Below are positions 249 through 38,019 of a stretch of DNA of 42,809 bases, one piece after another (position 1 is the first letter of the stretch; every line of letters begins with the position of its first letter). The DNA is taken from IMG/VR virus record IMGVR_UViG_3300037156_000046, positions 1 through 42,809 of that record; one strand, given 5' to 3'. Under the pieces are notes generated by a model, which saw nothing but the letters and a program-made list of their open reading frames with translations, was not told where the DNA came from and searched no databases. Source of the stretch: a virus. The position numbers and the translations under genes were made by a program.

Positions 249-756
249 TCGTGACATATACGGCCGGGTAACCATCCTCTACAGAGTGTTGACATCGCGG
301 AACGGTCATCGGAAACGATGTCTCGAACAGCCGATGCCGGCGAACCTTGATCCCGAACATTGACCCGCAAAGCAGATAAGGGGTACGCAGTTCGTCTCGC
401 GCGCCTTCTACGTTCTCAATCACGTAAGGCAGTCCAGCCTCGATCAAGAGTTCGCGAACGGGACTTATGAGATCGGGGTGTTTCTCTCGCGAACCGGGAT
501 TGAGTTTCGCAGCGTGCGAGTATCTCTGACACGGCGGGGACGCGTGGATGCCGGCCAGATCACCAAGCCACCACGGGCCGCCTCCCCCAGCGATCAACCG
601 CTCAAGAAACTCCAGCGCATCCTCTTGTATGAAGTGATTTCCGCAGTATTCGGGTTGCGGGTCGATGTCTACGCCGATGACGTAGAACCCGGCGCACTGA
701 TAGCCCTTAGTACATCCGCCAGCGCCACAAAACAGGTCGAGCAGGCGCGGCCTCAC
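34..756 (-). CDS. DNA (cytosine-5) methyltransferase
   Basis: Transfers a methyl group from SAM to cytosine C5 in DNA. From a GTG start at 756 the protein is 240 aa. It shows motif I (LLDLFCGAGG, about residues 5-14), the catalytic motif IV SPPCQ with Cys76, motif VI ENV (114-116), motif VIII RRHR (139-142) and a C-terminal motif X-like IGHQL. No restriction nuclease is next to it, so it looks like an orphan methyltransferase for host mimicry, regulation or as the first step of a larger base modification. GTG at 756 is preferred to the ATG at 795 because it gives a GTGA overlap with the upstream stop. Its own TGA overlaps the terminase GTG in the same way across the contig junction. At residue 210 the two contig ends encode Arg (CGC) and His (CAC). 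Confidence 0.95.
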   Translation of the reverse strand: MRPRLLDLFCGAGGCTKGYQCAGFYVIGVDIDPQPEYCGNHFIQEDALEFLERLIAGGGGPWWLGDLAGIHASPPCQRYSHAAKLNPGSREKHPDLISPVRELLIEAGLPYVIENVEGARDELRTPYLLCGSMFGIKVRRHRLFETSFPMTVPRCQHSVEDGYPAVYVTTTKRDGKKGLRGIVNPVATGARHNIDALRDAMGVDWMEKRRGITESIPPVYTELIGHQLMQQIGGRIKEAA

Positions 757-1370
757 GCGGCGAGCCGCTGCGGCGCCAGTAGCTCCAAAGCGCACGGGTT
801 AGGCCCGACATGCTCGAAATACTCCACCCGAATGCCGCGCGCCGCAAACGGAGCCTCGTCCAAGTAGTTCCGCCCGCTCGGACCGCTCAGCCACACGGTG
901 CCGCCGAGTTCCGCGGTCATCGCGACGAGTCCTTCGCTCACGTCGTCGTAACGCCCGGCCGCAAGATGTGACTGCATGTGAGCGTCGGGCGGATACGTGT
1001 CCGTCTCGGCGACGGAAAGCATGAGGCGAAGGAGTGCCATGTTGAGTCCGACGAGCATTTCGTATGGTCGCCCGAGCTCTTGGGCGAGAAGAACGGCCTC
1101 GCGGCCCATCTTGTGTGTCAGCGTCCGGGCGATCTTGCGGCGCGCAAACCCCGACGGGTCAGCGATACGAACCTCGTTGAACGGGCGACGGTCGTCAGTC
1201 TCGTTGACGGGCACCGTCAGCCATGAGCCATCCGAGAAGCGGTTACGGTTACAGAACCCGTGCCGCTCGTACTGCATCAAGTCCATCCAGATCACGGCGT
1301 CGGCCGACATAACTTTGCGGATGACGCTCGCGCCGGGCAGGAAGTTGGGAGTGTGGCCGGTGACGACTAT
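753..1370 (-). CDS. WbqC-family protein, apparent ATA start
   Basis: WbqC-like proteins sit in polysaccharide and glycan gene clusters; their reaction is not settled. Family marks seen here are an N-terminal GHTPNFLPG (the counterpart of the usual HQPNYLPW), the CNRNRF segment, LTVPVN, and SGPSGRNYLDE near the C-terminus. The conserved N-terminus lies upstream of the first in-frame ATG (1310), and no ATG, GTG or TTG lies in frame between it and the upstream stop in this frame. The likely start is ATA at 1370, overlapping the previous TAG as ATAG, with GGCGG six bases before it. That gives about 205 aa. A short form from 1310 would lose the family N-terminus. It ends in RLAA and is coupled to the C5 methyltransferase by GTGA. 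Confidence 0.8.
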   Translation of the reverse strand: MVVTGHTPNFLPGASVIRKVMSADAVIWMDLMQYERHGFCNRNRFSDGSWLTVPVNETDDRRPFNEVRIADPSGFARRKIARTLTHKMGREAVLLAQELGRPYEMLVGLNMALLRLMLSVAETDTYPPDAHMQSHLAAGRYDDVSEGLVAMTAELGGTVWLSGPSGRNYLDEAPFAARGIRVEYFEHVGPNPCALELLAPQRLAA

Positions 1371-1531
1371 GACGAACCGCCAGCCACAATTCGGGCATCG
1401 CTATCCGTCAATCCCTCGGCCACCACGACTCGCAGGCCGCGCGGATTCGCGCCGACGCGTCGCCAGAAATCAACCCAGGACTGATTGACAACAATCCGTT
1501 GTCCGTTCTCGATGACGACGGCCTTGTTCAT
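1367..1531 (-). CDS. Small hypothetical protein (54 aa)
   Basis: Not recognised. It starts at ATG 1531, which overlaps the upstream TGA as ATGA, and has GGAG five bases before it. The sequence has no cysteines; it begins with a short hydrophobic and charged stretch (MNKAVVIENG) and contains WVDFWRRVG. Its TAG shares bases with the proposed ATA start of the WbqC gene. Its position between a MazG-like gene and WbqC is the only functional hint. Confidence 0.6.
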   Translation of the reverse strand: MNKAVVIENGQRIVVNQSWVDFWRRVGANPRGLRVVVAEGLTDSDARIVAGGSS

Positions 1532-1773
1532 GGGTTCTCCGTCAGGTCAAGTGCAAACCGAAGCGCCATCGCCGCGATCTGTATGGCCTCTTTTCGCGCC
1601 TCGTGGCCGCGCGCCGTGTCTGCTCGAACGTGCTCCCAAAGTTCGTCCAACTCCTCGCGAATCACCGCCCACCCCTCGTGAGGAGAGGCCATCGGTGCGA
1701 ATCGCTCGCAGGCCGCTATCAACTCAGACACGACGGCATCTCCGAGGGCGACAACATGCGTCCGTCTAGCCAC
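1528..1773 (-). CDS. MazG-like nucleotide pyrophosphohydrolase
   Basis: An 81-aa, all-helical protein with the pattern of small phage MazG-like proteins: a central REELDELWEHV (the metal-binding ExxE) followed by REAR/KEAIQIAAMALRF. MazG-fold enzymes hydrolyse NTPs or dNTPs to monophosphates. In phages they are thought to adjust nucleotide pools, alarmone levels or modified nucleotides. The start is GTG at 1773, overlapping the preceding stop by eight bases (GTGGCTAG). No catalytic test is possible from sequence; the second acidic pair is only partly clear. Confidence 0.7.
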   Translation of the reverse strand: MARRTHVVALGDAVVSELIAACERFAPMASPHEGWAVIREELDELWEHVRADTARGHEARKEAIQIAAMALRFALDLTENP

Positions 1774-2344
1774 GACGCAGCACCATCAGTAGATCGTTCG
1801 GCAGATAGCCCCGCTCCACCGAGAAGCTAGGCGACAACTCCCCGGCCAGCCGCGCAACCTCGCTGGGGTCGTACCGTAGACACGCCGGATCCGTGCCGCA
1901 ATACAGCGACACCGCCATAGCGCGCGTCGTGCGCGCCCACAACATCCGCACGAGCGCCCAGGTGCGCGCCTTGCTCCAGTTGTCGCGGAGGTTGAAGGTG
2001 CCGCAGCACACGACGAGATCCCAGGTATCGCCGTCCCGCAGCATCGTCGTGAACTTGGTGCCCTGATGCTCGCGCCTCGCGCGCTCCACCATGCCAAGCG
2101 ACCAGTCGAAGCCTAGATAGTCCATCTCTCCGAAGTAAGACTCCATCGCGCCAGGCCCACAGCCGTAGTCGAGCACCGTAAGCTTTGTGTTGTACCTCGG
2201 GGCAAGCGCGTCGCGGATCGTCTGAAACCTCACGGGCTGCGACTCGCGCGACCATCCCGCAGCCGCCCACGGCTCAACATGCTCCACCGCGCGGCGCGAC
2301 CATGCAGCCGGCGAGTTGAGGCAATCATCGGTAAGCACCGTCAC
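1766..2344 (-). CDS. Class I SAM-dependent methyltransferase
   Basis: A Rossmann methyltransferase of about 192 aa. It shows the SAM-binding motif I VLDYGCGPG, the strand-II acidic segment LGFDWS, and a WDLVVCC motif IV-like strand. Substrate unknown. There is no DNA-methyltransferase motif (no PPY/PPW or PCQ), so a small molecule, sugar, protein or tRNA substrate is more likely. Its place beside WbqC and the glycosyltransferases suggests sugar O-methylation, but that is inference. GTG at 2344 is chosen because it makes a GTGA overlap with the preceding gene; an ATG at 2389 would overlap by 49 bases. Confidence 0.8.
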   Translation of the reverse strand: MTVLTDDCLNSPAAWSRRAVEHVEPWAAAGWSRESQPVRFQTIRDALAPRYNTKLTVLDYGCGPGAMESYFGEMDYLGFDWSLGMVERARREHQGTKFTTMLRDGDTWDLVVCCGTFNLRDNWSKARTWALVRMLWARTTRAMAVSLYCGTDPACLRYDPSEVARLAGELSPSFSVERGYLPNDLLMVLRRG

Positions 2345-2517
2345 GCGCTGATCCGCTCGGCCATAAAGCCGCCCTGATTGCGAAGCCATGTGCCGAGATT
2401 CTTGGACGGCTGCCCAATGAACTTACGGGCAATCGGCGCAGCATTGACGATCAATCCGTCGCGCACTTCGGCACCAATCGTCATGCGTTCAGTCGATAGC
2501 CAGTACCAGCCGCTCAT
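2341..2517 (-). CDS. Small conserved-type phage protein (58 aa)
   Basis: Starts at ATG 2517 with an ATGA overlap with the small terminase stop. The protein has a beta-hairpin-like N-terminus (WYWLSTERMT), then DGLIVNAAPIARKFIGQPSKN and a tryptophan-rich end. This resembles small uncharacterised proteins often seen near DNA metabolism or terminase genes of siphophages. No function is assigned. Confidence 0.65.
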   Translation of the reverse strand: MSGWYWLSTERMTIGAEVRDGLIVNAAPIARKFIGQPSKNLGTWLRNQGGFMAERISA

Positions 2518-2933
2518 GCCCCGGCTCCCTTCTTCGTGCGCGGATCAGGCTTCGACCGCGAACCCTTCGGCACATCGGCAGGCGCGTCACCCGCAGGCGG
2601 CTTGATCGTCCAGCCCAGCCGGTCACGATCCGACACCGTTGCGCCGAGCTTCGCCTCAGTCGTCCGAATCTCCGCGTGCAGATTCGCCGCAGGAGTCTTG
2701 TAGTAGAGGTCATAGAGCAGGACAAGGCCGACAAGCACCTGCCAATCCAGGTCAGTGAAGAACGGGGCCTGCGGCGAAGCGACCCACGCGTTGTACCGCG
2801 CGATCGACTCCGGGCGATGCTCCCCGACGAGCTCCGGCGCGACGGCTGCCGCAGCCTCCATATTCTTCGGCTGCTGCTTCGGAGCGTGCCGCGTAATCGA
2901 ATCCGGCGACGGCTTCGGGCCACGCGCGCCTAT
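2514..2933 (-). CDS. Terminase small subunit (P27-like), apparent ATA start
   Basis: Recognises phage DNA and loads it on the large terminase. The C-terminal half carries AEIRTTEAKLGATVSDRDRL, typical of P27-type small subunits, and the N-terminus GARGPKPSPDS matches the usual family start. That N-terminus is upstream of the first ATG (2861). The start appears to be ATA at 2933, overlapping the previous TAG as ATAG, with GGAGG (2941-2945) seven bases before it. This gives 139 aa. It is separated from the large subunit by six genes and the contig junction, an unusual spacing for terminase subunits. Confidence 0.82.
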   Translation of the reverse strand: MGARGPKPSPDSITRHAPKQQPKNMEAAAAVAPELVGEHRPESIARYNAWVASPQAPFFTDLDWQVLVGLVLLYDLYYKTPAANLHAEIRTTEAKLGATVSDRDRLGWTIKPPAGDAPADVPKGSRSKPDPRTKKGAGA

Positions 2934-3079
2934 GACTGATCCTCCGCAGGCCCATTCGCCACCGCGCGAACCTCCGGACGCTCGCCCACGTAATCGCCAA
3001 GCTCATCCGCGAGACGGTCGGCCTCTACCTGATTCTCGGCGAGGAACCAAACCTCGATCGGGACGCAATACTCGGGCAT
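2930..3079 (-). CDS. Small acidic protein (49 aa), first gene of the terminase segment
   Basis: ATG at 3079 is preceded by GGTGG six bases upstream, in the string GGTGGTTCGCCATG. The protein has a strand (VPIEVWFL), a helix (AENQVEADRLADELGDYV) and an acidic tail. It follows a 165-bp noncoding gap, so it may be the first gene of a transcript. Its TAG overlaps the ATA of the small terminase. Function unknown. Confidence 0.65.
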   Translation of the reverse strand: MPEYCVPIEVWFLAENQVEADRLADELGDYVGERPEVRAVANGPAEDQS

Positions 3080-3244
3080 GGCGAACCACCTTCGATACGG
3101 GCGACGGGGCGAGGGTTAGCGACTACTTGCAGAATGTTGCGAATGATATGGGCGTTGCAAAGGGTAACTTGCACGCTACAAAGTCGCGGCCCGGACTGTT
3201 GCGCCCTCAACCTTCGAAAGCTTTTTTCGGCTCAACCATGCGGT
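3080..3244 (-). promoter_or_regulatory. Noncoding gap upstream of the small terminase segment
   Basis: One of the few gaps in the leftward gene chain. Reading leftward, a TATCAT hexamer near 3133 could be a -10 element, but no clear -35 lies 16-18 bases upstream. A late promoter is plausible from position alone. No strong hairpin seen. Confidence 0.25.
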
Positions 3245-3529
3245 TTACGCACCACCTTTGCGCTTGTTGCATGTTTCGTGTGCTGGCCGTAGGTTGTGGA
3301 GTGCGTGGGTGCCGCCGGTTGCAAGGCTCACAATATGATCTACTGTTCTTGCATCTTCGGGCTTGAACCATTTGCCGCAGAGGGCGCAGCGTGTGGCTGT
3401 GGCGAGCACCTGTTCGCGGTTGCGCCGGTACTCCGGATCGTCGTGGGTTAGCCCGGTGGTGCATCTGGCGCATGTGGCGCCGTGTGTGGTGGGTGTGCCG
3501 CAGACGACGCAGGGCACGCGCCGTGCTAT
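3245..3529 (-). CDS. HNH endonuclease
   Basis: A small HNH nuclease. It has two zinc-binding CxxC pairs (VPCVVCG and ATCARC), a third CxxC (RCALCG), then the HNH core DHIVSLATGG, HNLRPAHETCN and KRKGG. HNH genes beside terminase genes are common in long-tailed phages and often assist packaging or cutting. The start is uncertain: ATA at 3529 overlaps the preceding TAG as ATAG, but there is no clear ribosome site. GTG at 3517 gives a protein four residues shorter; an ATG at 3616 would overlap the upstream gene by about 90 bases. Confidence 0.85.
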   Translation of the reverse strand: MARRVPCVVCGTPTTHGATCARCTTGLTHDDPEYRRNREQVLATATRCALCGKWFKPEDARTVDHIVSLATGGTHALHNLRPAHETCNKRKGGA

Positions 3530-3690
3530 CGGATGGCCTGAGCGTGGCTTACGTGGCGTCCTGTGCCATGACAGTGCCCGCATTGAACCGGGTGGTACGC
3601 ACTCCACCCGACCCACACATCGCCGTAGCCATCACAAGGCTTACAACGCTCAGACTCAGGTATCGCGTCGCGTCGCGAGTTGCGCGTCAT
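3526..3690 (-). CDS. DnaJ-type zinc-finger microprotein (54 aa)
   Basis: Contains two CxxCxGxG-like knuckles, CKPCDGYGD and CGHCHGTGR, the arrangement of the DnaJ central zinc domain, without a J domain. It probably binds one zinc ion and a protein or RNA partner. ATG 3690 overlaps the glycosyltransferase stop (ATGA). Confidence 0.75.
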   Translation of the reverse strand: MTRNSRRDAIPESERCKPCDGYGDVWVGWSAYHPVQCGHCHGTGRHVSHAQAIR

Positions 3691-4367
3691 CGGTGCCATG
3701 CCTCCGTCCGTTGCGCCAATCGTGCCGACCGATACTCCTGCCGCGCCCTGTCGCGTGCCGGCCCACGGTTGTTGTGTTCGTGGTGCAGTAGCACCATGCC
3801 GCTAAGGTCACACGCTGGCTCGAGCGTTACGTGTGCACTGTCGCCATGTAGCCATCTGCCGTCGTTTGTCCTGTACCCGTTGTGTGCGGTGTCTACGGTG
3901 ACGCCTGTTGACGCGCGGTAGATGCGGCGTATGGCACCTGGCGTGTTTACTCCGTCGTGTCCGGTGGTTCGCTTATGCATGATGGTGGCCACATCGCAGG
4001 GGGTGAACGTGAGCGCGTGACGGACGGCTGCCGGGTCTGCTCGTTCGATCCATTCGTCGCCGTCGATGACGAGTAGCCAGTCTGCGCCTGTCTCGCCTGC
4101 TTCTAGCATTAGGTGGGCGCGCTTCTCGACTTGGCTGCCCCATGCTGTGTCTGGCGTGTAGATGGTGTAGGCGATCCCTGCTTCTTCGGCTGCGCTTGCG
4201 ATGGCTGCGGCTTGTGCGGGGTCGGATTCGGGTCGTGCGTGCGGGAACATGTCCCATGCGCCGTCGTAACAGATCGCTTCGTCTACCAGGCCGCGCAGCG
4301 ACGTGATGCACCGCGTCAGGAACGGCACGGGTTCTTCGTACCAGGCGAGACAGGCGACGATTCTCAC
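3687..4367 (-). CDS. Glycosyltransferase, GT-A / family 2-like (third of three)
   Basis: 226 aa. The N-terminus ACLAWYEEPVPFLTRCITSL and the acidic DGDEWI near residue 100 fit a GT-A nucleotide-sugar enzyme with a metal-binding DxD. The C-terminal half has HGDSAH and LLHHEHNNRG, seen in glycosyltransferase-like phage proteins. No membrane segment, so it should act in the cytoplasm on a phage or host acceptor before assembly. Start is GTG 4367 with GTGA overlap. Sugar and acceptor cannot be inferred. Confidence 0.82.
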   Translation of the reverse strand: MRIVACLAWYEEPVPFLTRCITSLRGLVDEAICYDGAWDMFPHARPESDPAQAAAIASAAEEAGIAYTIYTPDTAWGSQVEKRAHLMLEAGETGADWLLVIDGDEWIERADPAAVRHALTFTPCDVATIMHKRTTGHDGVNTPGAIRRIYRASTGVTVDTAHNGYRTNDGRWLHGDSAHVTLEPACDLSGMVLLHHEHNNRGPARDRARQEYRSARLAQRTEAWHR

Positions 4368-4681
4368 GCGCCGAACTCGCGCGCAATCGTCGCGACAGCA
4401 TCAGCCGCCTTGTCTGCTTCCTTCTTCGCCTCCATCGCCGCCCTGGTCTTTGTCACGGCCACGGCGCGGAGCCTGTCCGCTGTCTTGGCTGCCGCGTTGA
4501 GACGGCTAACGCGTTCCGCGAACGTACCCTTGTCGGTCGCGACGGGTTGAGGCTGCTCGCTCGCCCGCTGTTCGCGTCCCGTGCGGCAATGGTCGCAGTA
4601 CGAGTAGCGCCCGACGCGGCTACGCGCCTCGTTCGGACAATTCGGGGTGTGACAACTGAATGTCTCTAGGTCGATGCTCAT
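4364..4681 (-). CDS. Zinc-knuckle plus helical protein (105 aa)
   Basis: The N-terminal third carries a four-cysteine zinc motif (CHTPNCPN and YCDHC). The rest is alanine- and lysine-rich helix with coiled-coil character. Starts at ATG 4681 overlapping the PIG-L stop (ATGA) and ends overlapping a glycosyltransferase GTG. Probably a scaffold or nucleic-acid-binding accessory; function unknown. Confidence 0.7.
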   Translation of the reverse strand: MSIDLETFSCHTPNCPNEARSRVGRYSYCDHCRTGREQRASEQPQPVATDKGTFAERVSRLNAAAKTADRLRAVAVTKTRAAMEAKKEADKAADAVATIAREFGA

Positions 4682-5157
4682 GCGTAGAACTCCTCCAAGC
4701 CTCTGACGAAATGGGGCGCGTCCGACGGGTGCGAATACTGCGACGGGTAGCACGCCAACGCGCGCAGCTTCAACCCGATCCAGTCGAGCTCGTACGGGAC
4801 GGGTGTGCCGGCCGACTTGCCTGCCGGCGTGTACGTCATGTATTGCGTGAGCGCGTCAGGGAAGTGGCGTCGGACCATCGTCCCGATGTAGTTGTGTTCG
4901 GCGTTGCCTTCGGGCTCGGGCGTGGGGGCGTAGATGTGGTCGTACCGCCATTCCTCTAGCGCGTGAAAGATCCGGTCTACAGGCAGTCGCCATTGCTCCC
5001 ATGTGACGCCGAGGATCTGGCAGGCCGCCTCCGTTTCGGCTTCGCGTTCCGGCCCGCCTTGTGTGCAGATGATGACGTGTGGTTTGTGGCGTAGCAGCGT
5101 GAACGCGCCGAACAGGGTTTCGTCGTCCGAGTGTGGCGCGAGGAAGACGCTACTCAC
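4678..5157 (-). CDS. PIG-L (LmbE-like) family deacetylase
   Basis: PIG-L enzymes remove the N-acetyl group from GlcNAc-type sugars using zinc. The signature APHSDDE (residues 7-13) is intact and HNYIG supplies the third metal ligand about residue 88. The protein is 159 aa, somewhat shorter than cellular members, and has no signal peptide. Beside three glycosyltransferases and WbqC it would produce an amino sugar on a glycan or nucleotide sugar. GTG 5157 overlaps the upstream stop as GTGAGTAG. Confidence 0.9.
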   Translation of the reverse strand: MSSVFLAPHSDDETLFGAFTLLRHKPHVIICTQGGPEREAETEAACQILGVTWEQWRLPVDRIFHALEEWRYDHIYAPTPEPEGNAEHNYIGTMVRRHFPDALTQYMTYTPAGKSAGTPVPYELDWIGLKLRALACYPSQYSHPSDAPHFVRGLEEFYA

Positions 5158-5290
5158 CAGACTTCTCCCATGCTTTCGTCGCTATCTCGCGAATCGTCTC
5201 CAGTTTTGTGGCGTCAGTCATGGAGCCCGTCCACTCGTCCACCACATCTAGGATGTCCGCCAGAGCGTTACGTAGCGTCTCGTCGCTCAT
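5150..5290 (-). CDS. Small helical protein (46 aa)
   Basis: ATG 5290 overlaps the stop of the upstream glycosyltransferase (ATGA). Acidic N-terminal helix (SDETLRNALADILDVVDEW) and a basic second helix. No family recognised. Confidence 0.6.
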   Translation of the reverse strand: MSDETLRNALADILDVVDEWTGSMTDATKLETIREIATKAWEKSGE

Positions 5291-5964
5291 GGCCGCACGA
5301 TGTGTCCCGGCCACGTCTCGTCCAACGGCTCCCGCTCGCGCACGATCTCAGCGAGCATCGCAATACACCGATCGCGCCCCTCGCTCGCGTCGAGCGGCGA
5401 GCCCGTCTTGTACGCACTCTCCGTCCACATGGTGCGCGACCCCATCGGCTCGTAGTAGCCGAACCAGCGTGCGGGATGCGCGAGCACGACACGCGGGATG
5501 CCATCGCGGGCGGCTTTGAGTGCGAGCCATACGTCAGCGTTCTTCGTTTCGAAGTCGGAACGCGTGGGCCGAATCGCATCCACGCGGAACGCGCAAACAC
5601 CTGTACCGGCGACATGCACGTCTACGTCTTCCTCGACCGCTTCGAGACAGCGGTAGTTGTCTACGCGTTCGCCCGTGGCATCCATTGTCCAGCCGTGAAA
5701 CGACACGATGCAGCCGGGGTATCGGGCGAGTCCCGCGACGATGGTTTCCACGTAGTCGGGCGGATACACGATGTCGTCATCGACACCGAGGAAGATCACG
5801 TCTCCGTGCGCCGTGGGGCAGGCTGCGAACTTGGCTTGGTCGCCGAGGGTGTCGCCGAGCGTGACGATGAGCCGGTCGACTTGTGGTAGGAGGCTGTCGA
5901 TGCTCATGGCGCGACTGCCGGCGCGCTCGCTGAGGGTCGCCATGCCTGCCCATACCTCGGTCAT
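5287..5964 (-). CDS. Glycosyltransferase, GT-A / family 2-like (second of three)
   Basis: 225 aa. N-terminal ATLSERAGSRAMSIDSLLPQV and a DDDIVYPPDYV segment give the typical acidic nucleotide-sugar and metal site; GWTMDATGERV and a conserved-looking WFGYYEPMG follow. Cytoplasmic by absence of membrane segments. ATG 5964 has GGAGG upstream (GGAGGAATACGAATG) and an ATGA overlap. Part of the cassette with PIG-L, WbqC and two further glycosyltransferases. Confidence 0.82.
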   Translation of the reverse strand: MTEVWAGMATLSERAGSRAMSIDSLLPQVDRLIVTLGDTLGDQAKFAACPTAHGDVIFLGVDDDIVYPPDYVETIVAGLARYPGCIVSFHGWTMDATGERVDNYRCLEAVEEDVDVHVAGTGVCAFRVDAIRPTRSDFETKNADVWLALKAARDGIPRVVLAHPARWFGYYEPMGSRTMWTESAYKTGSPLDASEGRDRCIAMLAEIVREREPLDETWPGHIVRP

Positions 5965-6140
5965 TCGTATTCCTCCAACACGCCCCAGGTGACCGGACAG
6001 TGGTTGTCGATGTGGTCGGTCATCGTCGCTACGGTCACGAAACGCCCGCAGGCTCCGCACCGAAGACGCCTACCACACACGGAACAGATCCCTCCTGTGC
6101 CCCAAAAGCAGCCGGTAAGACATCCCTCGTCTAACCTCAC
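5961..6140 (-). CDS. Cysteine-rich zinc protein (59 aa)
   Basis: Seven cysteines, including CSVCGRRLRCGACG in the middle and a following H/H/C set (TDHIDNHC), indicate one or two zinc sites, C2H2/FYVE-like in look but not assignable. GTG 6140 overlaps the preceding stop as GTGA. Unknown function. Confidence 0.7.
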   Translation of the reverse strand: MRLDEGCLTGCFWGTGGICSVCGRRLRCGACGRFVTVATMTDHIDNHCPVTWGVLEEYE

Positions 6141-6217
6141 GCGTTCACCGGCCAGGCGAATACGACGATGGCGAGCGTGATGAACGCGAGCGACGCCAGG
6201 AAGGTTCGCCTAAGCAA
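6137..6217 (-). CDS. 26-residue single-span membrane peptide
   Basis: TTG 6217 overlaps the upstream TAG (TTGCTTAG) and the TGA overlaps the next GTG, so it fits the coupled chain exactly. After two arginines comes a continuous hydrophobic helix (FLASLAFITLAIVVFAW) of transmembrane length. Could modulate lysis or the envelope, or be a chance reading frame. Confidence 0.5.
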   Translation of the reverse strand: MLRRTFLASLAFITLAIVVFAWPVNA

Positions 6218-6413
6218 GAATGATCTCCGCGTCCGCGGCGTGCGACGGAATCACGTCAATGAGTCGCTCGTCACCAAAATAGGTGACATACAGGCGGACA
6301 GCACCACCAACCTCTGCGTCGATAACAACGCGGGCCACGCGCGCAGCGGCGACGAGCCCGGCCTCACCCAGAGCGTCGATGAGATTGTGTCCCACGATCA
6401 TCTTTTCAGGCAT
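6210..6413 (-). CDS. Small hypothetical protein (67 aa)
   Basis: ATG 6413 has AGGAG seven bases upstream and overlaps the glycosyltransferase stop by eight bases. Predicted helix then beta strands (VGGAVRLYVTYFGDERLIDVI). No family recognised. Confidence 0.62.
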   Translation of the reverse strand: MPEKMIVGHNLIDALGEAGLVAAARVARVVIDAEVGGAVRLYVTYFGDERLIDVIPSHAADAEIILA

Positions 6414-7137
6414 GGCGACTCCTATACATGGCTTCTGCCGCGTCAATGAACTCGGCCGGATACCTCTCGCGCAACACAGCCCACGGGTCGACGTGCTCAA
6501 CGCACGGGAAGCCGCACACGAGCGCGTCATACGAGTTGAGTTGGTTCGCGGGCGACTTGAACTCGACAATGGCGAGCGGATCAACGCTGTAGACGAACGA
6601 GTACCGCTCCGTCTGATTCAGCGTCATCCATACGCTCGTGTCGATCGCGCGCCGCTTGTGATCCTGTGCGGGCCGGTAGCCGCACGCCTTGAGGAGCGCA
6701 GCCGGGATGATGCGGATGCCGTCGCCGCCCTCATAGCCGATGGTGATGGTCGCTAGCCGCGTACCTGTCTCGTTGACGACGCTGGACGCGCGAGACGCGC
6801 GAACCTGGTTCGCCTCGGGGAGTTGCGCGAGGTAGTCAGGGTCAAGCCAGTCGTCTGTGCCGCAGGGCGCTACGTAGTCGGCGCCGTTGCGGCAGGCGTG
6901 CTCGTAGCCGTCGTTCCATTTGCGGCCGAGTGCACCGTTGGGACGCTCAAGGGTGTCGAAGCCGTTGGCGCGGGCTATGTCGAGGTTGTCGTCATCAGCG
7001 ACGACTACCGCGTGGCCCTCGATGCTGTGATCCCGACGAGCGTTGAGATCGTCTAGCGCCCACCGGAGTTGCGGGAACGAGACGGTGGTTACGTCGTAGC
7101 GCCCGTGCGCCGGGATGATGAGCCACAGGCTACTCAC
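6406..7137 (-). CDS. Glycosyltransferase, GT-A / family 2-like (first of three)
   Basis: 243 aa. It opens with LWLIIPAHGRYDVT, the nucleotide-binding strand of family 2 enzymes, followed by ADDDNLD and the acceptor-site-like GTDDWLDPDYL. Likely metal-dependent transfer from a nucleotide sugar, in the cytoplasm. GTG 7137 overlaps the stop of the preceding zinc protein (GTGA). First enzyme of the glycan cassette in transcription order, just downstream of the lysis block. Confidence 0.85.
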   Translation of the reverse strand: MSSLWLIIPAHGRYDVTTVSFPQLRWALDDLNARRDHSIEGHAVVVADDDNLDIARANGFDTLERPNGALGRKWNDGYEHACRNGADYVAPCGTDDWLDPDYLAQLPEANQVRASRASSVVNETGTRLATITIGYEGGDGIRIIPAALLKACGYRPAQDHKRRAIDTSVWMTLNQTERYSFVYSVDPLAIVEFKSPANQLNSYDALVCGFPCVEHVDPWAVLRERYPAEFIDAAEAMYRSRHA

Positions 7138-7307
7138 TTGCCGCGCGGTACAACCATCTTGCGCGGCCCGTCTCTCCACGTTCCCCATACCTCTTCACAA
7201 CGGCTACACCAAACCGCGTGCGCCGTAATCTTGCCGCGACTCATCGTGCGATGCTCCGAACGGTGGCCTTTGAGCCGACAAACGAGGCGATGGAAGAACC
7301 GGCGCAT
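7134..7307 (-). CDS. Small zinc protein, DUF1660-like (57 aa)
   Basis: A basic N-terminal helix ending CRLKGH, a linker, then CSRCEEVWG gives a C-H-CxxC site like the short prophage proteins of the DUF1660 type. ATG 7307 follows the membrane-protein stop by one base. Function unknown. Confidence 0.65.
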   Translation of the reverse strand: MRRFFHRLVCRLKGHRSEHRTMSRGKITAHAVWCSRCEEVWGTWRDGPRKMVVPRGK

Positions 7308-7308
7308 G

Positions 7309-7521
7309 TTACGCGACGGGCGGGACGGGAGAATCAGGATGCCGCGCCAGCCATGCGTTCGCCTGCACCAATCCGTACTTCGCAACCGCGTATCCGCCCG
7401 CGATACCCCCCAGCTTCAACGCGTTCAAATCCGTGAACGAGCCGAGCGTCAACGCGGCAAGGAACGCCTGCGCGAACGTCGCACCCGCACGCTCCACAAG
7501 ATCAACGAGAACCTTCTTCAT
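7309..7521 (-). CDS. Holin-like membrane protein (70 aa)
   Basis: ATG 7521 has AGGAG upstream. The protein has a basic start (MKKVLVDLVERAG), a hydrophobic helix (TFAQAFLAALTLGSF) and a glycine-rich second helix (LGGIAGGYAVAKYGL), a pattern found in short actinophage holins. It follows the lysin and another membrane protein, as expected of a lysis block. Confidence 0.68.
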   Translation of the reverse strand: MKKVLVDLVERAGATFAQAFLAALTLGSFTDLNALKLGGIAGGYAVAKYGLVQANAWLARHPDSPVPPVA

Positions 7522-7530
7522 GCGTTTCTC

Positions 7531-7797
7531 CTAACGAGTGAGAATGTGGATGATGATCGCGAACCCGCCAAGCAGCGCGGTAGCGATCAAGGCTGCGGCA
7601 GAAATCCGGAATATGAAATGGACAAGCAGCACAAGCATCAGCGCCTCAACGATCAGAGACACCGGCCACCAATCGGCCTCACCGATCCAGACCGTGCTAC
7701 TGAACGTCGGCCACGGTACGAGTCCCCAATGCGCGGGTAGCTCGAGCGTGAAGAACGCGACCGACCAGACGCACAGCCCCCAAACGAGACGCGCCAA
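7531..7797 (-). CDS. Holin-like membrane protein with three spans (88 aa)
   Basis: Three hydrophobic segments, about residues 5-20, 43-64 and 66-86, with few charges between. TTG 7797 directly abuts the lysin TAG. Adjacent to the lysin, it is the stronger holin candidate; the following gene could be a second holin or an antiholin. The family is not certain. Confidence 0.68.
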   Translation of the reverse strand: MARLVWGLCVWSVAFFTLELPAHWGLVPWPTFSSTVWIGEADWWPVSLIVEALMLVLLVHFIFRISAAALIATALLGGFAIIIHILTR

Positions 7798-8355
7798 CTA
7801 CGGAAGGTAGGAGCGGAAACGAACAGGCTGCCGGTTGTCCTGCGAGACGCGGCAATACTGCGGCCCTGCCTCCTGGCCGTGAGACACCGTGAGCGGGTCG
7901 GGGCCAGCCTCAACAACGATCGCCACATGAAACGCGGCACCAGGACCGTAAAACACAAGGTCGCCAGGCTGCGGACGCCGAACAGGCTTGCCGCGACCGA
8001 TAAGCGTCCCGGTGTAGCCGGTGCCGTTGTAGCTGAGCCCGTTCGGATCCGGTGCGCCCGCGAGCTTGTAGCAGAGCGTGGCGAATCCGGAGCAGTCCGT
8101 GGTGAGCGGCAGTTTCCAGGCGAGAGGCATGGGCCGCGTTTCGGCGTAGTGGATCTTCGGCTCGTTCGCGACTCCCTTGCGCGCCAACTCAACCACCTTG
8201 TCGCGGAGACTCACGGGCGCGGGGGTGTTGTCCAGGACGGTGATGCGTCCGGGTGCGAAGCGCCGCTTTAGCGCGGGCAGGATCGCCTTGACTCGTGCTG
8301 CGGGTGCAGAGCGCACGATGGGATTGCCCTTGGGGCCGAGGATGCGATAGCTCAT
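7798..8355 (-). CDS. Endolysin, NlpC/P60-type cysteine peptidase
   Basis: Cleaves peptidoglycan peptides at the end of infection. The catalytic Cys88 is in TDCSGF, the His143 in FHVAIV, and a third residue, His159, in SHG. PQPGDLVFYG is the usual strand between them. 185 aa. The N-terminal 80 residues contain a phage-type linker region rather than a recognised wall-binding domain. No signal peptide, so release needs a holin; two membrane proteins follow directly. ATG 8355 has AGAGG upstream. Confidence 0.9.
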   Translation of the reverse strand: MSYRILGPKGNPIVRSAPAARVKAILPALKRRFAPGRITVLDNTPAPVSLRDKVVELARKGVANEPKIHYAETRPMPLAWKLPLTTDCSGFATLCYKLAGAPDPNGLSYNGTGYTGTLIGRGKPVRRPQPGDLVFYGPGAAFHVAIVVEAGPDPLTVSHGQEAGPQYCRVSQDNRQPVRFRSYLP

Positions 8356-8358
8356 GCG

Positions 8359-8511
8359 TTACCTCTTTCGTAGTGCGCGGATGGTGACGGGCCACGCTTT
8401 GACGTAATCGCAGCGGGCACAGATGACGGTAGGCGCGGTGCTCGCGGAGTCGCCGCGAGGCTTGAGCACCATCGACGCCTTGACGCCACAGGTGTTACAG
8501 ACGAGGCTCAC
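8359..8511 (-). CDS. Zinc-ribbon microprotein (50 aa)
   Basis: Two CxxC knuckles (VCNTCG and CARCD) about 27 residues apart form a classic zinc ribbon. GTG 8511 overlaps the preceding TGA (GTGA). Sits between SSB and lysin. Confidence 0.72.
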   Translation of the reverse strand: MSLVCNTCGVKASMVLKPRGDSASTAPTVICARCDYVKAWPVTIRALRKR

Positions 8512-8660
8512 GGTGCGAAGTCCGAAACGACTTCGGCTAGACCAAGTGCGAGTGCCTCATCCGTAGAGAAGCCTTCCCACATGCCGCCAACCCCTGTTTC
8601 TGTTTCAAGCGGCGAGTCAGGAAGGGACGATTCCTTGTCCCATTCACTGTCGCCGCTCAA
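8508..8660 (-). CDS. Small acidic protein (50 aa)
   Basis: TTG 8660 lies three bases after the SSB stop; AGGGG precedes it closely. Acidic sequence with WEGFSTDEALALGLAEVVSDF at the end. Continuous with the GTGA chain. No family. Confidence 0.55.
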   Translation of the reverse strand: MSGDSEWDKESSLPDSPLETETGVGGMWEGFSTDEALALGLAEVVSDFAP

Positions 8661-8663
8661 CCC

Positions 8664-9041
8664 CTAAAAGGGAAGGTCTGAATCGTCGGCAGCGAACTCG
8701 CCCGACACCGAGTCGGCACTTCCCGCGTTGCCGCCGCCGATAAAGGTAACCGAGTCCGCGATGATCTCCGCCGACTCACGCTTCTGACCCTCATGCTCAT
8801 ACTGGCGAATCTCGAGTCGTCCCGTGAACGCAGCCTCGCGGCCTTTCGACAGGTATTGCGCAACACTCTCGGCCTGCTTGCCGAACACGGTGACGTTGAT
8901 GAAGTTGCCGACCTCCTGCCACTCGCCGTCGATCTTCTTCCGCGTGTTATAGGCGACGCGGAGGTTGCAGACGGGTGTGCCGGCGGCGTCCCTTAGTTCA
9001 GGATCCCGAGTGAGCCGCGCGACGAGGTTGATGGAATTAAT
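8664..9041 (-). CDS. ssb: Single-stranded DNA-binding protein, apparent ATT start
   Basis: Binds ssDNA during replication and recombination. The OB-fold signatures are clear: NSINLVARLTRDPELR, NLRVAYNT, NFINVTVFGKQAE, and GREAAFTGRLEIRQYE. The C-terminus is acidic and ends DDSDLPF, the usual partner-recruiting tail. The normal SSB N-terminus is MNxINLxG; here it begins at ATT 9041, with AAGGAGG (9048-9054) exactly six bases before it, and the ATT overlaps the upstream TAA (ATTAA). Starting there gives 125 aa. An ATG at 9071 would add ten residues not typical of SSBs and has no such ribosome site. Confidence 0.92.
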   Translation of the reverse strand: MNSINLVARLTRDPELRDAAGTPVCNLRVAYNTRKKIDGEWQEVGNFINVTVFGKQAESVAQYLSKGREAAFTGRLEIRQYEHEGQKRESAEIIADSVTFIGGGNAGSADSVSGEFAADDSDLPF

Positions 9042-9306
9042 GACGAACCTCCTTAACGGTGATACGAACATGGCGGACGCCCCACGCGCGAGCTTTCGCG
9101 CACGAGCGCATCCACAGATCAATGTGCAAGCCTTTGACGGCGCTGCCCGTGTCGAGCGCCACGCCCCGCCCGTAGCCGGGAACATGCAGTCGGCTGTGGA
9201 GCGGGATGATGCGCGGATCTGTGGCGATGGTTCCGGACGCGACGGTGGTGCCTGTTGCGGTGTGCCCGCTGAGGCAGTAGGCGGTTGCGAGTACGACGAG
9301 GATCAC
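9037..9306 (-). CDS. 3D-domain protein (lytic transglycosylase-like)
   Basis: 89 aa, nearly all one 3D domain, named for its three conserved aspartates: TDPRIIPL, ALDTGSAVKG and HIDLWM. This fold is found in MltA-type transglycosylases and resuscitation factors, which cut glycan strands. It is only the domain, with no signal peptide or wall-binding part, so it may act with the lysin or as a virion or host-wall factor. GTG 9306 has GGAG nine bases upstream. A 270-nt structured leader precedes it. Confidence 0.85.
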   Translation of the reverse strand: MILVVLATAYCLSGHTATGTTVASGTIATDPRIIPLHSRLHVPGYGRGVALDTGSAVKGLHIDLWMRSCAKARAWGVRHVRITVKEVRH

Positions 9307-18364: not shown

Positions 18365-18447
18365 GGGCGGGCGCCGAAGTGGGAGAGTCGGGGCGGGCTG
18401 TAAACCCGTTGCCTCGTGCTGAGTGGGTTCGAATCCCTCCCCGCCCA
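18365..18447 (+). tRNA. tRNA-Tyr (anticodon GTA)
   Basis: An 83-nt class II tRNA. The acceptor stem is GGGCGGG/CCCGCCC, the D stem CCGA/TCGG, the anticodon stem GCGGG/CCCGT with GTA at 18400-18402, followed by a long variable arm, then a T arm with loop TTCGAAT. No CCA is encoded. Position 8 is C instead of the usual T and the T stem has one T-T mismatch, so it may be diverged. It is antisense to the flanking operon and about 340 bp from the integrase gene, so it may mark the attachment site. Confidence 0.85.
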
Positions 18448-18453: not shown

Positions 18454-18789
18454 TCACGCTTCACCCGGCGCAGGGCCAGTCCCTACGAAAGTGAACGAGA
18501 CTCCCGGCGAACTCTGCATCCAGGTATCGCCCAAGCAGGTTGTCTCGAAACGATCGCAGCCAATGACGATGATCCGCCCCTCTCTTCCATCGGGAAGCAC
18601 GAGCGAGGCTTCGCCTAGTTCCATGTCGAGGGGCGCGTCTAAACTGCCAGCCCACGAGCGAAGTCCGGGTATCCACTGGGTATCGCTAATCGGGATGCGA
18701 TCTTGCTTAAGTCGATAGGTGGCGCGAACCGCAACCGTCTCACCTTCCCGTACGAGCGTTGCGGCGCCGCTGTAGTCCGGCGCCCTCAT
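18454..18789 (-). CDS. Hypothetical protein (111 aa)
   Basis: ATG 18789 overlaps the integrase TGA (ATGA). Beta-rich: DYSGAATLVREGETVAVRATY, later LPDGREGRIIVIG. Family not recognised. It ends seven bases from the tRNA-Tyr. Confidence 0.62.
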   Translation of the reverse strand: MRAPDYSGAATLVREGETVAVRATYRLKQDRIPISDTQWIPGLRSWAGSLDAPLDMELGEASLVLPDGREGRIIVIGCDRFETTCLGDTWMQSSPGVSFTFVGTGPAPGEA

Positions 18790-19796
18790 GCCGCAGCCCT
18801 CTCCGGTTTCGCCCACGACAACCCACGTACCGGCTCCATCGCCGTAGCCTTCTCCAACTTCCGAAGATAGATCGCCGTCGTCGCAATAGACGAGTGACCC
18901 AGTAACTCCTGTAGGCCCCTCAGTTCCCCCGGATGCTGCTCCAAGTAGAACACCGCGAACGCCGCCCGGAGGGCGTGTACGTGCGTCACAACGCCCGCCT
19001 TAGCCCCCAGGGCGCGCACGATCTCCCAGATGCAACGGTCGTCACGCTCGCGCTTCCCGGCGAGGATGTCGGGCGCATAGAACGCGTACGGTGCCGGCGG
19101 TACAAGGAAGTCCGTCTGCTTGACGATCGCCCCTGCGGCTACCGCCCCGTCAATGAGCGTGCGGAGCTCGTCGGGTGCGGGCTTCCAGATGACCTTGTTG
19201 CCCTTCTCCCGAAACCTCAGTTGCCCCGCCTTCGTGTCATAGTCGCGTAGCCGGAGCCGTGAGACGGCGCGACGACGCGGCCCCATGTAGGCGAGGATGC
19301 CGATACAGCATCGGTGTGTCCACACTTCCCGGTCGGCGGTACCAGCTAGTGCGTCCAGGGCATCCGCAGCGGCGAACAGCTTGCGCACGTCGTCGGCGGA
19401 AACGCTCGTCACGTCGAGGTCCTCGGCGCGGATACGCTTGGTGCGGGCGAGCCTGTCCATCGGGTTCGCCTTGACCTTCTGATTTAGGTAGCACCACTTG
19501 AGCCAAGACGCGAGCACCGCTTCGGCGTGGGCGATCGTGCCGCGAGCGTTACCCTTCTTCGCCCCGAGGAACCGGCGGATGTTGTCCGTCTTGATTTCGG
19601 ACACGTCGCAGTCGACGGGGAGCGTGTCGCCGAACGCGTAGAGGACTCGCCTGTAAGTGCTGAGTGTGCGCTCCGACCATCCCCGGCGCAGGCCGTCATC
19701 GAGGAAGTCGTCCATGGCGCGATATGGGCTTATCATGCCGCGGATTATCGTCTCGAAGGGTTCCTGTGGTGAGGGCGCGGCCTGCCGGTTCCTCAT
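18786..19796 (-). CDS. Tyrosine-type integrase
   Basis: 336 aa from ATG 19796 (ATGA overlap). Core-binding helices occupy residues 20-120. The catalytic domain has Arg in GPRRRAVSRLRL (about 174-176), a Lys in EKGNK (198-201), HALR (His274, Arg277), LGHSS (His301) and the nucleophile Tyr310 in TAIYLR. It would join phage and host attachment sites. It is inside the leftward early operon, so it shares the regulated early promoter. No excisionase is recognised nearby. Confidence 0.93.
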   Translation of the reverse strand: MRNRQAAPSPQEPFETIIRGMISPYRAMDDFLDDGLRRGWSERTLSTYRRVLYAFGDTLPVDCDVSEIKTDNIRRFLGAKKGNARGTIAHAEAVLASWLKWCYLNQKVKANPMDRLARTKRIRAEDLDVTSVSADDVRKLFAAADALDALAGTADREVWTHRCCIGILAYMGPRRRAVSRLRLRDYDTKAGQLRFREKGNKVIWKPAPDELRTLIDGAVAAGAIVKQTDFLVPPAPYAFYAPDILAGKRERDDRCIWEIVRALGAKAGVVTHVHALRAAFAVFYLEQHPGELRGLQELLGHSSIATTAIYLRKLEKATAMEPVRGLSWAKPERAAA

Positions 19797-30426: not shown

Positions 30427-33400
30427 CTACGGGCGAATGTCGGACTGCTTGATGTGGCCGCGCCGCGAACCCATGATCACGGCCGCGCTAACCGACTCCA
30501 GGACGGACGGATGCTTCAACGCCGCCGCGAGCTCGTCATGCGAACCCACATAGTTCGGCGCGTTGACCACGATGTTGATAGCGCCACCGCCGCCACGTCC
30601 GGCAGCCACATCGGCCGGCTGCACACGCTCGCCCGCGTGCAAGTACGCCAAGCCGTCCCGGAGGATGTCGCCGCCCGAAGCCATCTTCGGAATCGGGTTC
30701 AGCAGGAAGTAGCCTGCCGCTCCGCCTAGTCCCGCCGTCACGCTCGACTGGCCGGGCGCGATAGGCGTCTGCCATGCGATCGACTGGGCCGTCGCGGAAA
30801 CCTTCGCCGCATCCTTCCCGTCGCCCAACGCGGCCAACGCGGCAGCCTCGTCAAGCATCACCTGTGCGAGCGCCTGCGTGGCCGTACCAAGGTTGCCCAT
30901 GTCATCCTGGAACTGTCCGCCCGAACTGAGCAGTACCTCGCCCGTCGTCAGGCCGTATTGCGCCAGGATGCCCGGAAGGTCCCCGATGTAGGCGGTGCCC
31001 GCAGCGATCCCCTGGCCGAGCGCATTGAGTTGGTTCGTCATCGCGTGTTCCGCGTCCGTCCGCTGCTGCTGGTACTGCGTCACCGCGTTCGCATAGTTCT
31101 GATCCGCCGTCTTGCGTTCAGCCGTCGCATCGATCGACAACTCGTTCTCATCGATCATGCGTTGCGCCTGATCCACCGCAGCCTTATCCGCGGCGATGGC
31201 TGCCGGTGTCCCCTTCGGCCCGAAGATGTCGCGCGTCGCACCCGTCGAGATGTCCACGATGTGCTCGATGAGCGCACCGTTCATGTCGTCCGCTAGCGTC
31301 TGCTGTGCGCTCGCCAGACCGTCCGTAAGGCTCTTAGCGGTGTCGGCAGCCTGCATGTCCGCGTACTGCTGTTCCTTCGGCGTGAGCAGCCCGCCCTGCG
31401 AGAACTTCGGCCCGAGCGTGTTAGTGATGTAGTCCTGTGTCGCGGCCGAGAACGCGGTTTGCACGTCCGAGATGATGTTCGAGAACGCCGACGTGATCGC
31501 CTGCTTGTCGGTGGTGATCGCGGCGGCAGCGGCGTCGGTTACCGCCTTGATCTGCGCCTTGAGGTTCGCAGCGACAGTCTTGGTGAACGAGTCGTCCGCC
31601 TTCGTGATCTCGTTAGCTACCGACTGCGCCTTCGCCATCTGCCCGTGCGCCTTGAGGTCGGCTTCCTCTGTCTTGAGTAGCGAGTCGAGCGTGTCGAGAT
31701 GCGCCTGAGTAGCGCTGTCCCCGAACGTCTGCTGCGCCGCGCGGATCTTGGCTTCGAGCGCGTCGGGAATCTTGTAAAGCGGAGGCTTCTTCGGCTTAGC
31801 TGCCGCGCTCGAACTCGCACCGAACGAGACAGGGGCCATGCCGCCGCCCGCTGTGATAGCGCCACTAGCGCCCATGATTGACGAGATGTAGTTCTGCGTC
31901 TCGGACGGCATGGTGCCGCCGTTCTTCAAGTAGTTGTCTACGTTGCCGGAACCCCAGTTGTAGGCGGCAAGCGCGAGCGGCCAAGACTTGTATTTCGCGT
32001 AGAGGCCCGCCATCATCTGCGCGGCCTTCGGGAGCGCCTGCGCCGGGTTGTAGGGGTTGAACGTCGTACCCGACCCCATCGTGCCCGGCATGAACTGAGC
32101 GATTCCTGACGCGCCCGAAGCGTTATGTGCGGCCGGGTTGAAGCCGGACTCCTGCTTGATCTGCGCGAGGAACAGCGACGAGGGGACGCCGTACTTACTT
32201 GCCGCCTGCGCGGCCATGTTCTTTAGCGGGTCACTGCCAGGGATATAGCTCGCCCCGAAGCTACCAGGGAGATAGCTCGTCTGAGCCGCACTCGTGTTCT
32301 TCTCAGCAGCCGGCGCGAGCAACGAACCCTCGCCCAGAGCGCCACGAATCGCGTTACCCAATGCCCCGCTCTGTGTCGCTAGTCCACCGAGGAGCGGTAC
32401 GTGGCCGAGGAATCCGATCCCAGCCTTGTTGAGAACGGACTGCCCGGCAGATGATGTAGGGATGATGTCGAGCGCGATGACGAGCGCGAGAGGTCCGAGC
32501 GCCTTGAGTTTTCCGAGCGTCCCGAGCAGTAGACTCGACTCCGACGATGCCGCTCCGAGCGCGCTCGCGCCAGCAAACGCGATCATCTCTGTCGTCCAGC
32601 CCAGGACTATCGGCGCGAACTTCAACGCGACGAGCAGTTCTAGCGTCTTCTCGAAGCCGCCCGTCGCCTTGTCGATGTCATCGAAAGCCGTCCGGCCCGT
32701 CTTGAGAATCCCGGTCAGATCACCAACCGCCGTCTTTACGTCATCGGTAACCGTCTTCTGATTCTTCGACTTCGAGATCCAGTCCTCGATCGCCTTCGCA
32801 ATATGGTTTACCTCCGGGAGAAGCCCCTGTCCGACCTTCTCCTCAAGATCGTGGACGGTCGCGCCGAGTTGCATCGTCGCGGTAGTCGAATCCTTCGCCT
32901 GGCCAGCCCAACGCTGCTGCGCCTGCGTAAGCGCCGTCTCAACCGACTCACCCTTCTGCACGACGATGCCGTACCGCTGCAAAGCCGTCGTCTTACCGTC
33001 GATCGCCTTACCGACCGCCGTCGCCGCCGTCTGGAGCGAGATGCCCTTACCGCGCGCCAGATCCTCCACAAGCCCCATGTACGTCACGGCGTCCGTCGCG
33101 TTGCCCGTGATCAGCGTTAGCTGCTTGAGCCCGCCGAGAATGTCCGTGTTCGTGTAGCCGAGCTTCGCGCCACCATCGGCGAGCTTCGCGATGACCCCCG
33201 TGTACGCGGTGAGGTTGTCGCCCGAGTGAACGATCGCGCCGTCGAGTGACCGGAGCGCAACGTTGTAGTCTTGTGCGCCCTTAACGGCCGTCTTGATGCC
33301 CATAGCGACGCCAGCACCGACAATGAAGCCCCCGCTACCGAGCGCGAGCGCAGCCCCGAACTTGCCGAACGAGCCGGTGGCCTCTAGTGCACCACGCGAG

Positions 33401-33741
33401 AACTTTGCCGTCTCGGTTGTCGCAAGCGCCGTCTCGCGGGCAGACGAGCGTACCATCGCATTAGACGCGAGGACTTCCAGGCCAAGCCGCTTCTGTGCCT
33501 TCGCCGCAAGGTCGAGTGCGGCAACCTGCTCCGCCGAGCCAGCCTCCGCCGATGCCGCGACGCGCCCGTACTCGGCCGCGAGCGCCTGGAGCCGAACCTT
33601 CTGCGCCTCCGTACGCTCAATGTTCTTCGCAGCAACCGACTCGACGGTGACACCGAACGTCTTGGCGTTCGCGGATGCCTCTGCGAAACCAGCGGAGTTG
33701 TAGTCGGTCGCAATTTCGATTCCGAGCCTTGGCCCTGCCAT
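30427..33741 (-). CDS. Tape measure protein with SLT domain (1104 aa)
   Basis: Sets tail length and aids DNA entry. Long helical regions and several hydrophobic stretches (GAALALGSGGFIVGAGVAMG). Near the middle is a soluble lytic transglycosylase-like domain: QIKQESGFNPAAH (catalytic Glu), SGIAQFMPGT and LALAAYNWGSGNV. It would cut peptidoglycan during entry. It has an alanine-rich C-terminal half. ATG 33741, just after the chaperone extension. Confidence 0.93.
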   Translation of the reverse strand: MAGPRLGIEIATDYNSAGFAEASANAKTFGVTVESVAAKNIERTEAQKVRLQALAAEYGRVAASAEAGSAEQVAALDLAAKAQKRLGLEVLASNAMVRSSARETALATTETAKFSRGALEATGSFGKFGAALALGSGGFIVGAGVAMGIKTAVKGAQDYNVALRSLDGAIVHSGDNLTAYTGVIAKLADGGAKLGYTNTDILGGLKQLTLITGNATDAVTYMGLVEDLARGKGISLQTAATAVGKAIDGKTTALQRYGIVVQKGESVETALTQAQQRWAGQAKDSTTATMQLGATVHDLEEKVGQGLLPEVNHIAKAIEDWISKSKNQKTVTDDVKTAVGDLTGILKTGRTAFDDIDKATGGFEKTLELLVALKFAPIVLGWTTEMIAFAGASALGAASSESSLLLGTLGKLKALGPLALVIALDIIPTSSAGQSVLNKAGIGFLGHVPLLGGLATQSGALGNAIRGALGEGSLLAPAAEKNTSAAQTSYLPGSFGASYIPGSDPLKNMAAQAASKYGVPSSLFLAQIKQESGFNPAAHNASGASGIAQFMPGTMGSGTTFNPYNPAQALPKAAQMMAGLYAKYKSWPLALAAYNWGSGNVDNYLKNGGTMPSETQNYISSIMGASGAITAGGGMAPVSFGASSSAAAKPKKPPLYKIPDALEAKIRAAQQTFGDSATQAHLDTLDSLLKTEEADLKAHGQMAKAQSVANEITKADDSFTKTVAANLKAQIKAVTDAAAAAITTDKQAITSAFSNIISDVQTAFSAATQDYITNTLGPKFSQGGLLTPKEQQYADMQAADTAKSLTDGLASAQQTLADDMNGALIEHIVDISTGATRDIFGPKGTPAAIAADKAAVDQAQRMIDENELSIDATAERKTADQNYANAVTQYQQQRTDAEHAMTNQLNALGQGIAAGTAYIGDLPGILAQYGLTTGEVLLSSGGQFQDDMGNLGTATQALAQVMLDEAAALAALGDGKDAAKVSATAQSIAWQTPIAPGQSSVTAGLGGAAGYFLLNPIPKMASGGDILRDGLAYLHAGERVQPADVAAGRGGGGAINIVVNAPNYVGSHDELAAALKHPSVLESVSAAVIMGSRRGHIKQSDIRP

Positions 33742-33744
33742 CGA

Positions 33745-33993
33745 CTACCCCCCTTCGCTGGTATTCGCCTTCACGAACTCATGCAGCCCGAGAATCTGGC
33801 CGAACGTCATGCCTGCCATGTCTCCGCGCCGAACGCCGCACCAATGGCCCATCCACGCCGCCCAACAATCCGCCGGGTCGTAACGGGTGCCCAAACGAAC
33901 GCCGAGCACCCTCTCGACGCGTACCGCTAAGTCTCCGAAGCCTCCGTCACGTCGTCCTCCTTGGTAGGTCCCTCCTCGGCCTCCTTCGGCGCG
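33745..33993 (-). CDS. Tail chaperone extension in the -1 frame
   Basis: A second reading frame overlaps the end of the first chaperone gene and lies -1 relative to it. It is open from just after a stop at about 33994 to TAG 33745, coding GDLAVRVERVLGVRLGTRYD and FGQILGLHEFV, then the tape measure begins. This is the place of the lambda G/GT programmed frameshift. No standard X XXY YYZ heptamer is evident in the overlap, so the shift site or an independent start is unresolved. Confidence 0.6.
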   Translation of the reverse strand, partial: RAEGGRGGTYQGGRRDGGFGDLAVRVERVLGVRLGTRYDPADCWAAWMGHWCGVRRGDMAGMTFGQILGLHEFVKANTSEGG

Positions 33994-38018: not shown

Positions 38019-38019
38019 G

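Follow-up and report, generated by a model that had tools for sequence, protein, structure and literature searches.

Three genes in a metagenomic phage sequence, the 42,809-base IMG/VR virus record analyzed here at its full length (the window, G000), are probably translated from AUU or AUA codons rather than from AUG, GUG, or UUG (together, NTG in the DNA). They encode a single-stranded DNA-binding protein (SSB, AUU), the terminase small subunit (TerS, AUA), and a WbqC-family protein (AUA). The first-pass annotation had assigned these names from the sequence, and Pfam profile matches, which begin at the codons in question, confirm them (Table 1). It had also pointed to similar strings at the three gene starts, which read on the minus strand, as it described, AAGGAGG-TTCGTC-ATTAA (SSB), GGAGG-ATCAGTC-ATAG (TerS), and GGCGG-TTCGTC-ATAG (WbqC). 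At each junction, the predicted start shares bases with the stop codon of the upstream gene, 5 nucleotides (nt) for SSB and 4 nt for TerS and WbqC, and the codon GTC directly precedes the ATT or ATA. Comparison with relatives establishes the predicted start positions of the three genes. The first half of the earlier proposal, that translation initiates at AUA and AUU, is well supported by the start codons of relatives, the rarity of the codons, and the placement of the ribosome sites.

The earlier claim that the first conserved residues of each protein lie upstream of any usable NTG holds for TerS and WbqC; for SSB, an in-frame ATG with a weaker ribosome site is present at 9071. The TerS frame opens at 3002 and the WbqC frame at 1400, and in neither does an ATG, GTG, or TTG precede the conserved N-terminus. 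The coding signal of TerS starts at 2930, immediately following the ATA. A sister phage, G002 (IMGVR_UViG_3300037086_000074), is 68% identical to the window in the terminase large subunit (TerL), 64% in the portal, and 68% in the integrase. Its TerS gene has ATG at the ATA codon of the window, and the residues that follow are conserved (MGASGPIPSPNSITRHKPKQ against IGARGPKPSPDSITRHAPKQ). This conserved stretch lies upstream of the first internal ATG in the window; therefore, the window gene must start at or before the ATA. GTG stands exactly at the ATA codon in L003, the closest terminase relative, and in Thermobifida phage P318, and two further relatives have ATG (G004) or GTG (G003) at the start predicted from the ATA, giving five relatives in all with NTG at this position. 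In P318 (L089, 283-301), the annotated TerS start lies six codons upstream of the GTG that matches the other TerS starts. That GTG comes after a GGGGGG ribosome site, and the annotated start is probably wrong.

The WbqC homologues give the same picture. The ATG codons of Mycobacterium branderi, Mariluticola halotolerans, Azospirillum brasilense, and Vibrio phage PG28 all align with the ATA, as does a GTG in Arthrobacter phage DanielleIgnace, where the annotated start is three codons upstream. None of the WbqC homologues checked begins at the GTC position. The WbqC genes of M. branderi and Mariluticola likewise overlap their upstream genes by 4 nt. No WbqC gene was found in the related phages, including the sister phage.

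For SSB, 80 homologues from IMG/VR, about 40 of them distinct, were compared. Every one has an NTG start, which lies at the ATT position in about 18 of the 40 distinct sequences and 1-5 codons earlier in the rest. In SSB relatives from GenBank and the PDB, Met often stands one codon ahead of the ATT, and position 1 of the PF00436 profile is the ATT codon itself. The sister phage decides the question. From the in-frame TGA to the conserved core, its SSB gene reads CAG GCG CCA ACA CTT TCA ACA AAG GAG CAC GCC ATC AAT TCG. This stretch contains no NTG; GCC occupies the place of the GTC in the window, and an ATC, located 6 nt after AAGGAG, aligns with the ATT of the window and overlaps no stop. These data support a predicted non-AUG start for SSB and count against GTC. 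As a control, the starts of TerL (GTG/GTG), the glycosyltransferase at 3687 (GTG/GTG), and the protease (ATG/ATG) match between the window and the sister phage. The sister genome itself comprises 39,662 bases (L100) with a 134-base end repeat containing one mismatch, and the contig ends split its SSB gene.

Codon usage and ribosome sites were also considered. In confidently assigned genes of the window, ATA accounts for 7 of 6819 codons and ATT for 56 of 6819. By codon usage alone, two ATA codons and one ATT codon at first residues predicted by protein families have an expected frequency of about one in 10^8. The Shine-Dalgarno site of SSB has the best pairing score of all genome sites scored (Table 1), and its energy is -12.3 kcal/mol, versus -5.8 kcal/mol for the site of the ATG at 9071. 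Fourteen genes in the window that start with NTG use an exact 4-nt overlap, NTGA. Related phage loci totaling 1.2 Mb, together with the window, were screened for starts that overlap a stop, follow a good ribosome site, have coding signal on both sides, and lack a nearby NTG. The screen yielded the ATA of TerS and one further plausible case, a CTG in L003; the remainder were shifted offsets or implausible codons. In the same loci, an ATT in a 5-nt overlap with a good ribosome site occurs only at SSB of the window. This possible CTG start, at position 15865 of L003, lies in a 4-nt CTGA overlap and has a ribosome site, with no NTG close by (LTETILRDTARTLEVTFYPP). ATAG sequences with good ribosome sites in Streptomyces prophages (L024 and others, 15445) were discarded as parallels because NTG starts lie nearby in frame.

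Several observations weigh against initiation at AUU and AUA. The SSB homologues are split between the ATT position and the codon before it, which means that the codon cannot be fixed from SSB alone, and ten codons upstream of the SSB ATT there is an in-frame ATG. A strong Shine-Dalgarno site at proper spacing is present for SSB and TerS and is not convincing for WbqC, so the earlier statement that a ribosome site precedes each gene stands for two of the three. Ribosome-site spacing does not discriminate between GTC and ATT or ATA; canonical starts in the window have spacings of 3-7 nt, with 4 nt being the commonest, and spacing by itself does not count GTC out. RNA folding at the three junctions does not differ from that of shuffled sequences and lends no structural support to coupling; for the same reason, the idea that RNA structure hides the TerS and WbqC sites was rejected.

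The rival with the largest share of our doubt is specific to SSB, which might begin at the ordinary ATG at 9071, inside the gene for the 3D-domain protein, with ATT as an internal isoleucine codon. This ATG is in frame and has a modest ribosome site, and a standard gene caller restricted to NTG would presumably pick it. However, the ten additional codons would contain AAGGAGG, the best-scoring site, which would then serve no other start. The SSB of the sister phage has neither such an extension nor any NTG, and this explanation is silent on TerS and WbqC. We consider it unlikely. That all three genes begin one codon earlier, at GTC, appears less likely still. GTC is present at all three sites, a GTC start has been proven in an actinobacterium (Streptomyces sigR, PMC5472188), Met stands one codon earlier in many SSB homologues, and the spacing to GTC at TerS is the commonest one in this phage (4 nt). 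Nevertheless, the sister phage has GCC before its SSB ATC, and the ATG codons of four WbqC homologues and the NTG codons of five TerS relatives align with ATA and none with GTC. It is on these two grounds that GTC as a common start was judged unlikely. The spacing to GTC at SSB is just 3 nt, and the presence of the very rare ATA in a 4-nt stop overlap would be a coincidence occurring twice.

Two further explanations dispense with unusual initiation. Damaged genes or a wrong assembly, with real phages carrying NTG at these sites, would fit a single metagenome consensus whose end repeat has one mismatch and for which no second copy of the three loci was found. Three independent errors would be needed, all in first codons and all sparing the upstream stop, in frames that are intact and retain their conserved domains; moreover, the sister phage independently lacks NTG at SSB. 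This scenario is very improbable. Programmed frameshifting could join the upstream genes to SSB, TerS, and WbqC, in which case no separate start would be needed, and the frames do overlap upstream of every junction. The shift required differs, however, being -1 for TerS and WbqC and +1 for SSB. Inspection of the junctions by eye revealed no slippery heptamer, the proteins encoded upstream bear no relation to their neighbors, strong Shine-Dalgarno sites are present at two of the three junctions, and the TerS and SSB genes of the sister phage have no preceding overlapping gene. We regard frameshifting as the least credible of these alternatives.

With initiation at AUU and AUA as the preferred explanation, the question becomes whether the overlap dictates the codon, as the first-pass annotation proposed. 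Its geometry is correct. A G at the third base would abolish the upstream stop and extend the upstream frame by 25 (WbqC), 147 (TerS), or 13 (SSB) codons; a 4-nt overlap on UAG requires NUA, and a 5-nt overlap on UAA requires NUU. As a cause, the overlap fails for SSB and is compatible with, though unproven for, TerS and WbqC. The SSB gene of the sister phage starts at ATC with no stop overlap; therefore, the overlap was rejected as the cause of the SSB codon, and the cause lies elsewhere. The weak SSB start perhaps serves dose control. TerS of the sister phage has ATG and no overlap, whereas the window has ATA with an overlap, a contrast compatible with a trade-off in the window but not proof of it. 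The overlap may hold the AUA codons of TerS and WbqC in place, given that G as the third base would eliminate the upstream stop; this possibility is likewise unproven. By reasoning, a stepwise route from ATGA through ATAA to ATAG would retain the upstream stop throughout.

The following mechanism is envisaged. The ordinary initiator tRNA would read AUU and AUA despite mispairing at the third base of the codon. At SSB, the near-perfect Shine-Dalgarno site at ideal spacing would offset the weak codon, possibly in a regulatory role, and the weak AUU or AUC start would be a feature common to the window and the sister phage instead of resulting from the overlap. SSB does not need reinitiation, since the sister gene uses a non-AUG start without an upstream overlap. 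At TerS and WbqC, the AUA would lie within a 4-nt stop-start overlap, a device widespread in this genome as NTGA. Ribosomes finishing the upstream gene on UAG would already be at the AUA and could restart there, which may keep output low and tied to the upstream gene. Reinitiation is thus a reasonable, putative route for both genes, and most reasonable for WbqC because it lacks a good ribosome site. In Escherichia coli, reinitiation makes use of initiator tRNA together with IF2, and an excess of IF3 inhibits it (PMC2268962); IF3 represses nonstandard starts (PMC5472188). A bolder proposal, which is conceivable but doubtful, is that this lineage selects an AUU or AUC start with a near-perfect site for SSB, so that the SSB dose tracks the stringency of host IF3, and that one member adopted AUA in UAG overlaps as a second, weaker form of NTGA coupling.

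The features discussed above are listed in Table 1. The window has a G+C content of 63%, and the minus strand carries nearly all of its genes. A 248-base direct repeat with a single mismatch is present at its two ends (1-248 and 42562-42809), so the window looks like a complete phage genome, circular or terminally redundant. The mismatch (128 C / 42689 T) is a possible population variant. The closest large-terminase relatives belong to phages and prophages of Actinomycetota, which makes an actinobacterium the probable host. A DNA-level search of GenBank phages with the window gave no match, and sequence searches of IMG/VR with SSB, TerS, or WbqC gave no close relatives and no second copy of these three loci. 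One related locus (L083) is identical to the window but spans 31252-40690 only, and another (L084) spans only about 33356-38858. A complete tRNA-Tyr gene (18365-18447, plus strand) adjoins a tyrosine-type integrase (18786-19796, minus strand); this gene could be a sign of the attachment site or a tRNA captured from a host. The cluster at 753-7188 encodes the WbqC-family protein, a methyltransferase, glycosyltransferases, and a probable PIG-L-type deacetylase (4678-5157), whose HSDDE motif was spotted by eye, and it looks like a surface-glycan modification cassette. The WbqC homologues of M. branderi and Vibrio phage PG28 also adjoin a PIG-L or GlcNAc-malate deacetylase.

Table 1. Coordinates of the three junctions in the window
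Feature	Position	Strand	Remarks
SSB gene	8664..9041	-	125 aa from ATT start; PF00436, E 8.5e-26
SSB ATT start codon	9039..9041	-	ATTAA, 5-nt overlap with upstream TAA 9039-9037
SSB Shine-Dalgarno site AAGGAGG	9048..9054	-	6 nt before ATT; pairing score 22
Gene upstream of SSB, 3D-domain (peptidase-like) protein	9037..9306	-	PF06725, E 1.5e-15; TAA end 9039-9037
Rival upstream ATG for SSB	9069..9071	-	+10 residues; ribosome site -5.8 kcal/mol
TerS gene	2514..2933	-	139 aa from ATA start; Terminase_7, PF25673, E 1.2e-18
TerS ATA start codon	2931..2933	-	ATAG, 4-nt overlap with upstream TAG 2932-2930; no in-frame NTG upstream
TerS Shine-Dalgarno site GGAGG	2941..2945	-	7 nt before ATA; pairing score 14
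Small gene upstream of TerS	2930..3079	-	49 aa; coding signal; ordinary ATG start with GGTGG-TTCGCC
WbqC-family protein gene	753..1370	-	205 aa from ATA start; PF08889, E 5.1e-22
WbqC ATA start codon	1368..1370	-	ATAG, 4-nt overlap with upstream TAG 1369-1367
WbqC GGCGG, weak or absent ribosome site	1377..1381	-	pairing score 9
Small open reading frame upstream of WbqC	1367..1531	-	54 aa; starts in ATGA 4-nt overlap with ribosome site

Because common gene callers accept only ATG, GTG, and TTG, phage catalogues truncate, extend, or miss genes of this kind. Three such starts in one compact phage, one of them non-AUG in two related phages, offer a natural test of the extent to which a strong ribosome site or a terminating ribosome can stand in for start-codon strength and of whether weak starts set the dose of a replication protein in phages. 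The case also suggests that, with AUA as the start, the 4-nt overlap device can make use of UAG. In the open-access papers searched, we found no report of an AUU, AUC, or AUA start combined with an overlap, of repeated use of such starts in one phage, or of related phages that both start SSB at a non-AUG codon.

Starts at AUU, AUC, and AUA and NTGA overlaps are each already known in bacteria. In infC (AUU, AUC, or AUA), Staphylococcus aureus ccpN, citZ, and cvfC1, and Borrelia pncA, such a codon is the sole initiator, as predicted here. In S. aureus infC, ccpN, and cvfC1, AUA or AUU is accompanied by an extended Shine-Dalgarno site (PMC13009471), which SSB parallels, and reporters of ccpN, citZ, and cvfC1 with AUA or AUU starts give about 10-30% of AUG output (PMC13009471). 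The known and present cases are also alike in being conserved across relatives and missed by standard annotation. The known cases, however, are host genes, several of them regulatory, whereas here three genes of one phage are involved, including replication and packaging proteins; unlike in the known cases, each start shares bases with an upstream stop. The nonstandard GTC start of Streptomyces sigR (PMC5472188) likewise comes from an actinobacterium, and GTC precedes all three sites in the window, but alignment of relatives puts the starts here at ATA or ATT. At the end of the upstream gene, TerS and WbqC show the 4-nt geometry of NTGA overlaps that undergo termination-reinitiation (Huber et al. 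2019, PMC6728339). They differ in having UAG, not UGA, as the stop and AUA, not AUG or GUG, as the predicted start, and the 5-nt overlap of SSB is one that no NTG start could form.

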